64,000 bases of DNA, taken from NCBI GenBank assembly GCA_015057025.1, contig SVFD01000002.1, positions 310,001 through 374,000 on the forward strand, read 5' to 3'. The first letter of the stretch is position 1. Every line of letters starts with the position of its first letter. The notes under the pieces are model-generated. The model was not told the DNA's origin. It saw only the letters and a list, made by a program, of their open reading frames with translations, and ran no database searches. The stretch is from Lachnospiraceae bacterium. GTDB taxonomy: Bacteria > Bacillota > Clostridia > Lachnospirales > Lachnospiraceae. The position numbers were made by a program, and so were the translations under genes. This document shows positions 24,187-55,206 of this stretch, piece after piece.

Positions 24187-24243
24187 AGTTCATTTATCTT
24201 TCTTAAATATAATATTTCAATTTACATTTCATAATATAGACTA

Positions 24244-24283
24244 AAAACAGGCAAGCCTTAATAATATCTAGCATACCTGTTTT
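24244..24283 (-). terminator. Hairpin terminator downstream of ftsY and of structured element 1
   Basis: AAAACAGG and CCTGTTTT, with some further pairing inside, form a stem-loop followed on the minus strand by a TGTTTTTAG run. It lies beyond structured element 1, so an ftsY transcript reaching this site would contain the element in its 3' region. Confidence 0.6.
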
Positions 24284-24316
24284 AAGTTCAAATATTCTCT
24301 TTATTTATTCGTTACA

Positions 24317-24483
24317 TGAAACGATTCTGTCCGGTTACATATTTTCCGTAAAGAACCCTTTGAGTACGTCAGTGCTTAGCAAAAAGGCTTGTTTACAAGG
24401 CTTTGCGCTTAGCATCTGCTACGTACGAAACCGAGCGAAAGCGCGTTCTGCACGGAAAATATGTAACCGGACAGAATCCTTCA
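24317..24483. repeat. Structured inverted-repeat element, copy 1
   Basis: A perfect 27-base inverted repeat (24323-24349 and 24452-24478), extended by TGAA/TTCA, encloses a core at 24350-24450. The core starts AAAGAACC and ends ACCGAGCGAAAGCGCGTTCTG in two segments, with a 63-base imperfect hairpin (24364-24426) between. AGAAC and GTTCT in the core continue the outer stem. A related core lies at 42682-42778 with unrelated outer arms. The element fills most of the 316-base gap between ftsY and the YitT gene and has no open reading frame of note. It could be a small RNA, a 3' untranslated-region structure or a miniature mobile element; I do not recognise it. Confidence 0.75.
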
Positions 24484-24502: not shown

Positions 24503-25432
24503 CTATTCAATATCAAACAACGCATTTACAAACTGCTCACTGTCAAACTTTTGCAAATCTTCAATGGTTTCACCCACACCAATGTATTTAACAGGCACTT
24601 TCAACTCCGATTGAATTGCCACAGCAATACCACCCTTAGCTGTACCATCCATCTTGGTAAGAATAATACCGGTAAGATCTGTTACTTCTCCAAACTCCCT
24701 TGCCTGCATCAAGGCATTCTGACCTGTCGTGCCATCCAAAACAATTAAATTTTCCCTGTGAGCATCAGGAAATTCTCTCTCTATGATGCGGTTAATCTTT
24801 TTTAACTCTTCCATCAGATTGCGTTTGTTATGAAGGCGTCCTGCGGTATCACAGATTAAAACATCCACATTACGGGATTTTGCCGCACTTACCGCATCAA
24901 AAATAACACTGGCAGGATCAGAGCCTGTATTTGCTTTGATAATTTCCACGCCTGCCCTATTAGACCATTCCTCTAATTGCTCAACCGCAGCCGCACGGAA
25001 AGTATCCGCAGCGGCAATCAAAACACGTTTGCCTTTGTCTTTTAACTTGCCTGCAAGCTTACCAACGGAAGTGGTTTTACCCACGCCGTTTACACCGATA
25101 ACAAGTATAACAGACTGCTTATTTTCAAATTCATAGGCAGTCTCGCCTACACGCATCTGTTCCTTAATGTTTTCAATCAAAAGTTCCCTGCATTCCTGAG
25201 GTTCTTTTATTCTCTGCTCTTTTACCTGCTTACGAAGACGCTCCATTATTTCACCGGTGGCATTTACACCGATATCTCCCATAATGAGCACTTCTTCCAG
25301 TTCCTCATAAAAATCTTCATCTATACGTGAGTATCCTTTAAAAACAGAGTCCATACCATGCACAATGTTATTTCTTGTTTTACTGAGACCTTGTTTTAAG
25401 CGGCTAAAAAAACCTTTCTTTTCCTCACTCAT
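24503..25432 (-). CDS. ftsY: Signal recognition particle receptor FtsY
   Basis: 309 residues, the short Gram-positive form without a long acidic N-terminal A domain. FtsY is the membrane-associated GTPase that receives ribosome-SRP complexes for co-translational insertion. The N domain (about 1-100) is followed by the G domain with 'GVNGVGKTTSVGKLAGKL' (P-loop), 'DTFRAAAVEQLEEW', 'DTAGRLHNKRNLMEEL' (G3) and 'TKMDGTAKGG' (G4 and closing loop), all intact. It is downstream of smc, the standard rnc-smc-ftsY order. Its stop codon is only about 20 bases from structured element 1. Confidence 0.97.
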   Translation of the reverse strand: MSEEKKGFFSRLKQGLSKTRNNIVHGMDSVFKGYSRIDEDFYEELEEVLIMGDIGVNATGEIMERLRKQVKEQRIKEPQECRELLIENIKEQMRVGETAYEFENKQSVILVIGVNGVGKTTSVGKLAGKLKDKGKRVLIAAADTFRAAAVEQLEEWSNRAGVEIIKANTGSDPASVIFDAVSAAKSRNVDVLICDTAGRLHNKRNLMEELKKINRIIEREFPDAHRENLIVLDGTTGQNALMQAREFGEVTDLTGIILTKMDGTAKGGIAVAIQSELKVPVKYIGVGETIEDLQKFDSEQFVNALFDIE

Positions 25433-42625: not shown

Positions 42626-42835
42626 TATCATTTTCTTTCGGACCGTTATCTTCGCATATTGTGTGGATATTTTTATTCCATAAAGAACCGTTTTGAATGC
42701 GTCGGCACTTAATGAGCAAGGATACTTCCTTGCGAATTTAGTACCGTTACGTATTCAACCGAGCGAGAGCGCGTTCTGTTGGAATATAAAATAATCCACA
42801 CTATTTCATATTATAATCTCCGAAAGAAAATGATA
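42626..42835. repeat. Structured inverted-repeat element, copy 2
   Basis: The core at 42682-42778 matches that of copy 1: AAAGAACC at the left, a central hairpin (42693-42758) and ACCGAGCGAGAGCGCGTTCTG-like right end. The outer arms are different in sequence from copy 1 but again pair: GTGTGGAT with ATCCACAC and TTCCA with TGGAA close to the core, and a second perfect 16-base pair (42626-42641 with 42820-42835) further out. It fills most of the 279-base gap between the epimerase and the UPF0210 gene. Confidence 0.75.
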
Positions 42836-42884: not shown

Positions 42885-44249
42885 TTAATTTTTAAAACTG
42901 TGAATCGGTGCAGGAATTCTTCCGCCACGATTTACAAAAGCATCACAAGAGAACTGATTTACAGGCATAATAGGCGCATAACCAAGCAAACCGCCGAATT
43001 CCACGGTCTCGCCAACTCCCTTGCCGATTACGGGGATAATACGCACTGCTGTGGTCTTCTGGTTAATCATACCGATTGCAAGTTCATCCGCAATAATACC
43101 GGAAATGGTGGTTGCCTTGGTGTCGCCGGGAATTGCAATCATATCAAGACCAACCGAACATACGCAAGTCATGGCCTCTAACTTCTCTAAAGTAAGGGCG
43201 CCAGCCGTTACCGCATCAATCATACCCTGGTCTTCACTGACAGGGATAAAAGCACCGCTCAATCCGCCTACATAAGATGACGCCATAACGCCACCTTTCT
43301 TTACCTGATCGTTAAGAAGTGCCAAAGCTGCCGTAGTACCGGGCGCACCTGCATATTCCAAACCAATCTCACATAAAATATCCGCTACACTGTCGCCAAC
43401 CGCCGGTGTAGGTGCCAAAGACAAGTCTACGATACCAAAAGGAACACCAAGACGCTTAGACGCTTCTTTTGCTACCAACTGGCCTACTCTCGTTACCTTA
43501 AAAGCAGTCTTTTTAATGGTTTCACAAAGCACTTCGAAATTCTTGCCGCGTACCTTTTCCAAGGCTGTTTTTACAACGCCCGGTCCGCTGACACCAACAT
43601 GAATGACACAATCCGCCTCGGTTACACCGTGGAACGCCCCCGCCATAAAAGGATTATCGTCCGGTGCATTACAGAACACCACAAGCTTAGCACAGCCCAA
43701 GGAATCCTTTTCTTTGGTTGCTTCTGCGGTCTCTTTGATGATTTCACCCACCATTTTAACCGCATCCATATTGATACCGGTCTTGGTAGAACCTAAGTTA
43801 ATGGAACTGCACACTCTGTCTGTAGTGGAAAGTGCCAAAGGCACGGATTTAATTAAAAGTTCTTCCGCCGGGGTCATACCCTTAGAAACCAATGCGGAAT
43901 ATCCGCCGATAAAATTAACGCCTACTACTTTTGCCGCATCATCTAATGTTTTTGCGATGGTTGCAAAATCCTCAGGGCTTTTACAAGCCGCACCGCCCAC
44001 CAATGCAATGGGGGTTACGGAAATTCTTTTATTTACGATAGGAATACCGAACTCGCGCTCGATATCCTTACCGGTCTGCACCAAATCCTTGGCGCAGGTA
44101 GTAATTTTCTTAAAAATCTTCTCATTACATACCTTCAAATCCGGGTCTACGCAGTCTAAAAGGCTGATACCCATGGTGATAGTACGCACATCAAGATTCT
44201 CTTTTTCAATCATCTGATTTGTCTCAGATACTTCATATATGTTAATCAT
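42885..44249 (-). CDS. PFL family protein (UPF0210, DUF711)
   Basis: 454 residues from the ATG at 44249 with TTGGAGG upstream; this matches the usual length of about 450. '[16 protein letters not shown]', '[20 protein letters not shown]', '[17 protein letters not shown]' and '[20 protein letters not shown]' are strongly conserved in the family. Structures of relatives show a pyruvate-formate-lyase-like barrel, but the reaction is unknown and no glycyl-radical motif is present. It is found next to a small ACT-domain gene in very many Firmicutes, as here. Confidence 0.95.
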
Positions 44250-44330
44250 GATTGCCTCCAATGTTATGTTTTAAATTAGCAAGCTTGTAAACTCTTTCTT
44301 CGTCCGAATCTATATAGCTCGTTCGTTATA

Positions 44331-55123: not shown

Positions 55124-55206
55124 GCCGGTGTGTCGGAATGGCAGACGAGGCAGACTCAAAATCTGTTGTGGGCAACCACGTGTGGGTTCAAGTCCCACCG
55201 CCGGCA
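55124..55206 (+). tRNA. tRNA-Leu (anticodon CAA)
   Basis: 83-base class II tRNA. The acceptor arms GCCGGTG and CGCCGGC pair (one G-U), with A as discriminator base. The anticodon stem GCAGA/TCTGT holds the loop CTCAAAA, giving anticodon CAA for the codon UUG. A long variable arm (about GTGGGCAACCACG) and the T arm GTGGGTTCAAGTCCCAC follow. The 3' CCA is not encoded; the next bases are GTAC then a T-run. Confidence 0.95.

Follow-up and report, generated by a model that had tools for sequence, protein, structure and literature searches.

A family of interspersed, structured and probably mobile intergenic repeats in Lachnospiraceae, with a conserved core and a nearly free outer stem

Two long hairpins found between genes in a Lachnospiraceae genome appear, with a probability of roughly 0.6, to belong to a single family of structured intergenic elements of approximately 150-210 bp that are dispersed over the genome, non-autonomous and probably mobile. 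Both lie in the window, the 64,000-nucleotide stretch of contig SVFD01000002.1 (positions 310,001 to 374,000, forward strand) that was analyzed. The family shares a structured core, occurs in many copies, is placed between genes, and is present or absent at one clean homologous site; the element would be moved by some host- or element-encoded enzyme. This reading is favored because of the high copy number, the empty-site comparison, and the multi-copy occurrence of the element in a distant lineage. The two window copies, each built from an outer stem (P1), a short helix within it (P2) and two hairpins (P3 and P4), and their neighboring genes were located as follows:

24323..24349, + strand: copy 1, 5' arm of P1; 27 bp, perfect, of locus-specific sequence
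24352..24356, + strand: copy 1, 5' strand of P2, AGAAC; P2 covaries in 5 of its 5 pairs
24364..24426, + strand: copy 1, P3 hairpin with half-motifs CGTC[AG]G..CTTA and TTAG.., a U-U mismatch and a two-base bulge
24435..24444, + strand: copy 1, P4 small hairpin GCG-AAAG-CGC; 98.1% of P4 cells are paired across the family alignment
24445..24449, + strand: copy 1, 3' strand of P2, GTTCT
24452..24478, + strand: copy 1, 3' arm of P1
42655..42807, + strand: copy 2, whole covariance-model match (P1-P4); 137.9 bits, E 1.8e-31
42684..42688, + strand: copy 2, 5' strand of P2, AGAAC
42763..42772, + strand: copy 2, P4 small hairpin GCG-AGAG-CGC
42773..42777, + strand: copy 2, 3' strand of P2, GTTCT
42626..42642, + strand: copy 2, outermost arm (TATCATTTTCTTTCGGA), predicted by folding to pair with 42819-42835
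42819..42835, + strand: copy 2, 3' side of the outermost arm, predicted by folding
24503..25432, - strand: neighbor of copy 1, gene for an SRP54-type GTPase (ftsY; SRP54 domains, Pfam), its 3' end facing the right end of the element
42885..44261, - strand: neighbor of copy 2, DUF711 gene (Pfam), its 3' end facing the right end of copy 2

The features that an earlier note had ascribed to copy 1, namely a perfect 27-base stem, additional pairs, and an inner hairpin with a T-T mismatch and a two-base bulge, were all found, and copy 2 repeats this layout within 42655-42807, with the same mismatch and bulge and with an extra outer arm pair. As RNA, copy 1 is predicted to fold at -83.0 kcal/mol compared to a shuffle mean of -37.9 (z -12.36) and copy 2 at -85.1 kcal/mol compared to -39.1 (z -11.41); in each case none of 200 shuffles was as good. 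Of the junction bases proposed to be conserved, GAGCG-N4-CGCG constitutes a conserved hairpin itself, P4. The accompanying statement that the whole outer stem differs holds for copy 1 against copy 2, and fails for three other copies in the same genome (L002, L003, and L004), which nearly share an inner stem (GATATTTTTATTCC paired with about GGAATATAAAAT) and diverge further out.

The proposed covariation is strongly confirmed, being in excess of shuffled and slid controls. With 52 distinct aligned sequences, changes on both sides were observed in 48 of 54 pairs, as had been anticipated from the window copies; paired cells amounted to 93.7%, compared to 61.3% in shuffles and 32.6-46.9% with the partners slid, and the covariation score, 0.798, fell to 0.203 in shuffles and to no more than 0.146 in the slid controls. 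This alignment was fitted to the model, which favors pairing, and the gap is judged to be far beyond that effect. The conserved core comprises, at a three-way junction, the P3 hairpin with its U-U mismatch and two-base bulge (conserved letters CGUCGG..CUUA / UUAG.aCCG.UACG) and the small P4 hairpin (GCG-N4-CGC or CGU, the outer pair being G-U in 37 of the 52 sequences). By comparison, the sequence of P1 is almost free, and all 22 of its pairs have changed on both sides.

The ends of the element outside the variable arms are conserved in most copies from G046, a particularly element-rich genome (..CTAGC on the left, GCGAACC on the right), and ACAG and CGTCC were seen by eye at those positions in one subfamily of the window's own genome (G000). 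In a few G046 copies (e.g., L295 and L291), GAACCTTTG-like units recur past the right end. Other copies (L178, L199, L202, L206, L227, and others) carry outside them an extra locus-specific inverted repeat that is split by the element and is partly terminator-like. These extra outer repeats prompted the consideration of insertion into the centers of pre-existing palindromes, which was rejected as a general explanation because the variable arms of the G046 copies lie within the conserved end motifs.

A search for the conserved right-hand motif identified four places in the own genome, and the covariance-model searches of this genome and its relatives that the earlier note had proposed revealed many more copies, with abundant compensatory changes. 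Model R1, built from seven sequences, gave 41 matches in G000, some of them on the opposite strand of a place already matched; model R2, built from 54 sequences, identified at least 39 separate places there, none on both strands (150 of 183 candidates scored), and in a later run two places were weakly matched (28-33 bits) on the opposite strand as well. Within the window, the whole-family model matched at copies 1 and 2 only (E<=1). G046 had at least 150 matches; a 400-kb sample of this genome contained 65 copies, of which 63 lay outside ORFs of 90 amino acids or longer, and extrapolation from these 400 kb to 3.3 Mb gives a total of approximately 500.

Among the nearest-kin genomes, 53 of 145 (the own included) matched R1 at E<=0.001, all of them in the window's family; in genus g1, G002, G026, G027, and G028 gave no match in this search. 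At the level of the order, R2 matched 30 of 295 genomes at E<=1e-8, each of the 30 again belonging to this family; among the genomes listed in that run, 18 further members of the family and two of other families had no match. Five of 398 genomes matched R2 phylum-wide at E<=1e-6, namely four of the own family and G735, and weak matches were lost in runs over 40 genomes, for which stricter filters were used. G735, from another family and class, has the element in at least seven places, seven of seven of which scored again, and inspection of two of its copies by eye showed a complete core and arms that pair. The occurrence of the element in this genome suggests horizontal spread. Thus far, in the genomes searched, the element has been found only in the window's family and in this one distant phylum-mate. 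The G735 loci, L427-L433, are distributed over contigs C1, C2, C3, C5, C14, and C16 of the sole element-bearing genome found outside the family, and its copy L422 adjoins genes that by eye are ABC-transporter-like.

The short right-hand pattern by itself was found in 48 stretches of the viral_contigs and at least 118 of the genome_contigs collections; with R2, three of these 166 loci were recognized as true copies (L080, L092, and L110), all from Lachnospiraceae records. Carriage by phages or plasmids was rejected, as one copy used as the query found no match in phage and plasmid collections at E 0.01, and a search of viral contigs with a two-part core pattern gave 0 matches.

It is extremely improbable that the hairpins represent transcription terminators, or chance long inverted repeats caught by a permissive model, and as a full explanation this is already refuted. 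Long hairpins do occur near gene ends, and R1 gave scores of up to 46 bits to the opposite strand of genuine copies, which R2 still matched at the two weak places noted above. Set against this, the core sequence is conserved, the first R2 run listed no opposite-strand match in G000, 393 of the 398 phylum-wide genomes had no R2 match, and so few of the 166 pattern loci were true copies. Nor was a terminator-like site reported at either window copy: a scan limited to loops of 3-8 bases returned none at copy 1 or copy 2, a GC-rich stem with an immediate U-tract was seen at neither by scan and inspection, and promoter-like sites at both were at shuffle level. As initially described, copy 1 sits between ftsY, with its SRP54 domains, and a terminator-like inverted repeat on the other side (approximately 24243-24284); this repeat was spotted by eye, the same scan giving no site in that stretch, and it was also seen by eye in a relative, G006, at a site without the element.

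The element was originally assigned to no named family, and a comparison with Rfam 15 agrees: at gathering scores, the whole window gave a single match, an ordinary tRNA (55124-55206, + strand), leaving the element unmatched. At E<=5, four copies with their flanks had seven matches, all far under gathering scores; the best, cspA (32.3 bits against a gathering score of 78), adjoins the element and does not lie on it.

With respect to neighboring genes, the orientations of the flanking ORFs relative to the element were (+,+) for 38, (-,-) for 29, (+,-) for 13, and (-,+) for three of 89 copies from several genomes, the remaining six having no neighbor on one side; because these orientations vary, there is no fixed orientation overall. 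Divergent gene pairs were rare among the 89, and the G046 sample has eight (+,-) and eight (-,+). In G046, the right end of the element lies at a median of 97 bp from the nearest 3' end of a gene and 218 bp from the nearest 5' end, the corresponding values for the left end being 348 and 275 bp; the right ends of both window copies likewise face the 3' end of a - strand gene. Across genomes, the neighboring proteins formed small clusters only, with no evident common function, and the largest cluster (seven loci) overlaps elements and looks like spurious ORFs. A recurrent partner gene was rejected, as the clusters were either small or made up of loci at one and the same site in related genomes. 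The specific role of copy 1 as a 3' region of ftsY mRNA, which had also been suggested, lacks support in view of the number of places in this one genome, the presence of both orientations, and the small size of these clusters.

Copies situated less than 1.5 kb apart show a pronounced arrangement; 36 of 40 distinct pairs diverge, two are '--', two are '++', and none converges. The diverging share was 17 of 18 in the G046 sample, 11 of 14 in 11 chosen genomes (tallied from printed coordinates, with several genomes represented by their best ten matches only), and eight of eight among others within 1.5 kb of copies. The tightest doublets are approximately 50 bp apart (G321). Tail-to-tail doublets resemble REPINs; REP, REPIN, and BIME sequences are high-copy intergenic palindromes, often arranged as inverted doublets, that occur with RAYT transposases. 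It is nevertheless very unlikely that two diverging hairpins together form the mobile unit here and that a Y1 (HUH) transposase, of the RAYT/IS200 type, moves it. The arrangement and closeness of the pairs are consistent with such a unit, as are the Y1 matches, several of them fragmentary, in five of ten element-rich genomes (G001, G013, G046, G077, and G081). Against it, 31 of the 39 copies in G000 and roughly half of those sampled from G046 lie outside close doublets, the doublet spacers are barely alike, with only a few short matches in common, and Y1_Tnp (PF01797) had no match in the other five element-rich genomes (G000, G006, G020, G087, and G041, of which G006, G020, and G041 are just 74-86% complete). 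Y1 matches were also found in four element-free genomes (G026, G028, G033, and G034), bringing the count to nine of 16 genomes searched, and none of 21 Y1 loci had the element in the surroundings fetched. Mobilization by IS200/RAYT enzymes was rejected on account of the Y1-free element-rich genomes and this lack of linkage, and the genomes searched yielded neither an autonomous relative of the element nor a mobilizing enzyme. The element is thus like REP/REPIN/BIME sequences in being high-copy and intergenic, with close neighbors forming inverted doublets, and unlike them in its many single copies, its length of 150-210 bp, its internal three-way junction, and the five element-rich genomes missing Y1.

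By analogy with the attC sites of integrons, the hairpins might instead be recombination sites flanking exchangeable gene cassettes, although this is quite improbable. At one G000 locus, the right-hand copy is kept in G006 and G020 with different arms, and the stretch to its left, between diverging copies, differs in length and content among the three genomes while the outer flanks are conserved. Two diverging doublets on contig C12 of G000 (L230 and L231) each enclose one of two related lipoprotein-like genes, and a third on C13 (L232) encloses a gene resembling these at its start; the two C12 genes form one BLASTP cluster with the gene beside a single copy at C6:172259 (L185), and the one lipoprotein-like gene scanned had no Pfam match. 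On the other hand, the genes enclosed elsewhere are ordinary chromosomal genes, including dapB, many doublets enclose none (few genes lie inside doublets and more between them), and close copies are mostly inverted, whereas those of integron arrays are direct. A transposon with cargo between diverging ends was likewise discarded, the spacers being barely alike and the six of 17 listed G046 ORFs that were scanned being ordinary; the scanned genes between diverging copies encode GNAT, DapB, flavin reductase, DegT, and a PBECR4-domain protein.

Presence and absence of the element at homologous sites could be compared cleanly at one site and less cleanly at another. At the rmlA/rmlB site (names assigned by eye), approximately 290 bp are present in G145 and absent in eight of eight congeners, in which the gap is short; the end of the insertion, CGTCC, adjoins a ribosome-binding site, and the flanks are too diverged for a target-site duplication to be defined. 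To the left of this copy (L387), a leader of approximately 100 nt with a small ATGCC..GGCAT inverted repeat forms part of the insertion, and no counterpart to it was found by eye in the leaders of other copies. The ftsY sites of G006, G001, G030, and G019 show no visible core, their flanks being too diverged for exact ends. Two features of MITE-like repeats, broadly defined, are seen: a high number of copies scattered between genes, and presence or absence at homologous sites. Several points weigh against a mobile element: no mobilizing enzyme was found and no target-site duplication could be delimited, the scanned genes between diverging copies are ordinary, the insertion was compared cleanly at the rmlA/rmlB site only, where its leader is unmatched, and copies that occupy the same site across species also fit fixed functional elements.

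Several such same-site copies were seen. In G003-like species, those at tlyA-like/NAD-kinase, uvrA/mreB, and valS (names by eye) persist while both arms change, and eight copies of G145 and G151 lie at matching sites. In four of these eight pairs the left flank is conserved (0.81-0.99) and arm identity is 0.88-1.00; in the other four the left flank is unrelated (0.50-0.59), the core identity is 0.92-1.00, and the arms have changed in three (0.54-0.82) and been kept in one (0.92-1.00), where shuffled arm letters would give 0.50. In one pair, the stem of the G151 copy has decayed (16/26).

The persistence of copies in place while both arms change accords with a stationary class of structured RNA, acting in cis in 3' or intercistronic mRNA (e.g., as a processing or stability element) and multiplied by descent, which is unlikely as the explanation of the family. 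This class would also account for the G-U outer pair of P4, for the left-hand gene reading towards the element in 11 of 13 cases from G003, G021, and G024, and for a preponderance of G-U over A-C outside G046. In symmetric counts of P1, G-T:A-C ratios were 32:1 in the G003-like group, 12:2 in genus g109, 6:3 in the G000-like group, 20:6 in others, and 17:16 in G046; the G003-like value does not amount to 33 independent events because a few inherited wobbles repeat, and the ratio over everything counted, 94:29, comes from related copies whose counts are not independent. The model-fitted alignment gave 82 G-U against 20 A-C. A folding-based count, which includes fixed core mismatches and outer flanks, pointed in the opposite direction (G-U 233 on the + and 416 on the - strand), an excess driven by G046 (+77/-245) and G000 (+32/-69). 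On balance, the element may be read as + strand RNA outside G046, the symmetric and folding-based counts pointing in different directions.

Several observations argue against a stationary class. Overall, copies occur in both orientations to their neighbors, which have no evident common function, and empty sites exist; the extrapolated G046 complement is hard to reconcile with service to each nearby gene. There is also no + strand bias in G046, neither in the symmetric count nor in a gapped count of the arms of 77 copies (13 G-T, 23 A-C, 97 other, 83 gaps, and 2051 matches, where, judged by eye, a single recurrent mismatch and a single recurrent bulge at the stem base account for the majority of the 'other' and gap columns), and the folding-based count has more G-U on the - strand. 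Of the two natures first offered for the hairpins, a small RNA or a hairpin mobile element, the latter is the better supported, and a role as RNA is possible in view of the G-U excess outside G046.

Under the mobile-element reading, the conserved core (three-way junction, P3, and P4) would presumably be recognized by a trans-acting factor, and P1 would be required as a stem only, its sequence being free to change if both arms change together. The stem probably forms in RNA within the transcript of a neighboring gene, at least in the G-U-biased groups, a DNA hairpin being its other possible form. How far the arms vary is best seen in G046, where 69 of 76 left arms (16 nt) are distinct and identity between copies is 0.56 for left arms and 0.87 for cores; a left arm has an ungapped identity of 0.79 with its own right arm and 0.52 with that of another copy. 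It is doubtful, though conceivable, that the element rewrites its own stem, one arm being copied from the other during movement or repair so that whole arms are replaced at once and do not drift one base at a time; the element would then be mobile and structured, with a variable stem that it templates itself, and might pass through a folded RNA intermediate. Self-templating would explain near-perfect arms that differ among similar cores, as well as the lack of a G-U excess in G046, and in the G145/G151 comparison strong arm change was confined to pairs that also showed turnover of the left flank (three of four such pairs, none of four others). Templating of the arms from local flanks was rejected, the longest exact match averaging 7.43 to own flanks and 7.44 to the flanks of others (p=0.37).

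Small interspersed repeats that carry stem-loops are already well established in the literature (PMC3049150, PMC2267715). BOX, RUP, and SPRITE of Streptococcus pneumoniae are described as small interspersed repeats whose RNA is predicted to be extensively structured, and which are regarded as mobile but non-autonomous and are over-represented between convergent genes; BIME are also mentioned (PMC3049150). The present element resembles them as a small interspersed structured repeat that is probably non-autonomous and mobile, and is set apart, by description, in its host, its modules, its core, and an outer stem that is nearly free and whose arms change together. A survey of 2008 reported 92 families of stem-loop repeats in 40 genomes, many of them intergenic, structured and repeated (PMC2267715), to which the element is alike in kind when compared by description and not by sequence. 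Palindromic candidate structured RNAs from the human microbiome also have structures on both strands, a likeness by description and not by comparison of models; 20 of 250 were not predicted terminators, and Bacteroidetes are the main or sole source of the four presented as examples (PMC8040213). By description, the element would be set apart from BOX/RUP/SPRITE and the stem-loop families by its core, by a paired stem of almost unconstrained sequence, and by having no evident partner of RAYT type. A literature search, whose reach excluded most subscription journals and all preprints, returned no description of the element, and it is apparently an undescribed repeat.

The two window copies are real and represent an unnamed structured repeat that is present in high copy number, is probably mobile, and occurs mainly within a single bacterial family. 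If this reading is right, the Lachnospiraceae, known from the gut, carry an unnamed structured repeat whose copy number per genome may reach into the hundreds. Such an element offers a dense natural experiment in which a fixed core is combined with a stem that needs only to pair, and it could reveal a new mobilizing enzyme or RNA-binding factor. Because its copies fall between genes, at least one of them just ahead of a ribosome-binding site, the element may also shape the expression of its neighbors.
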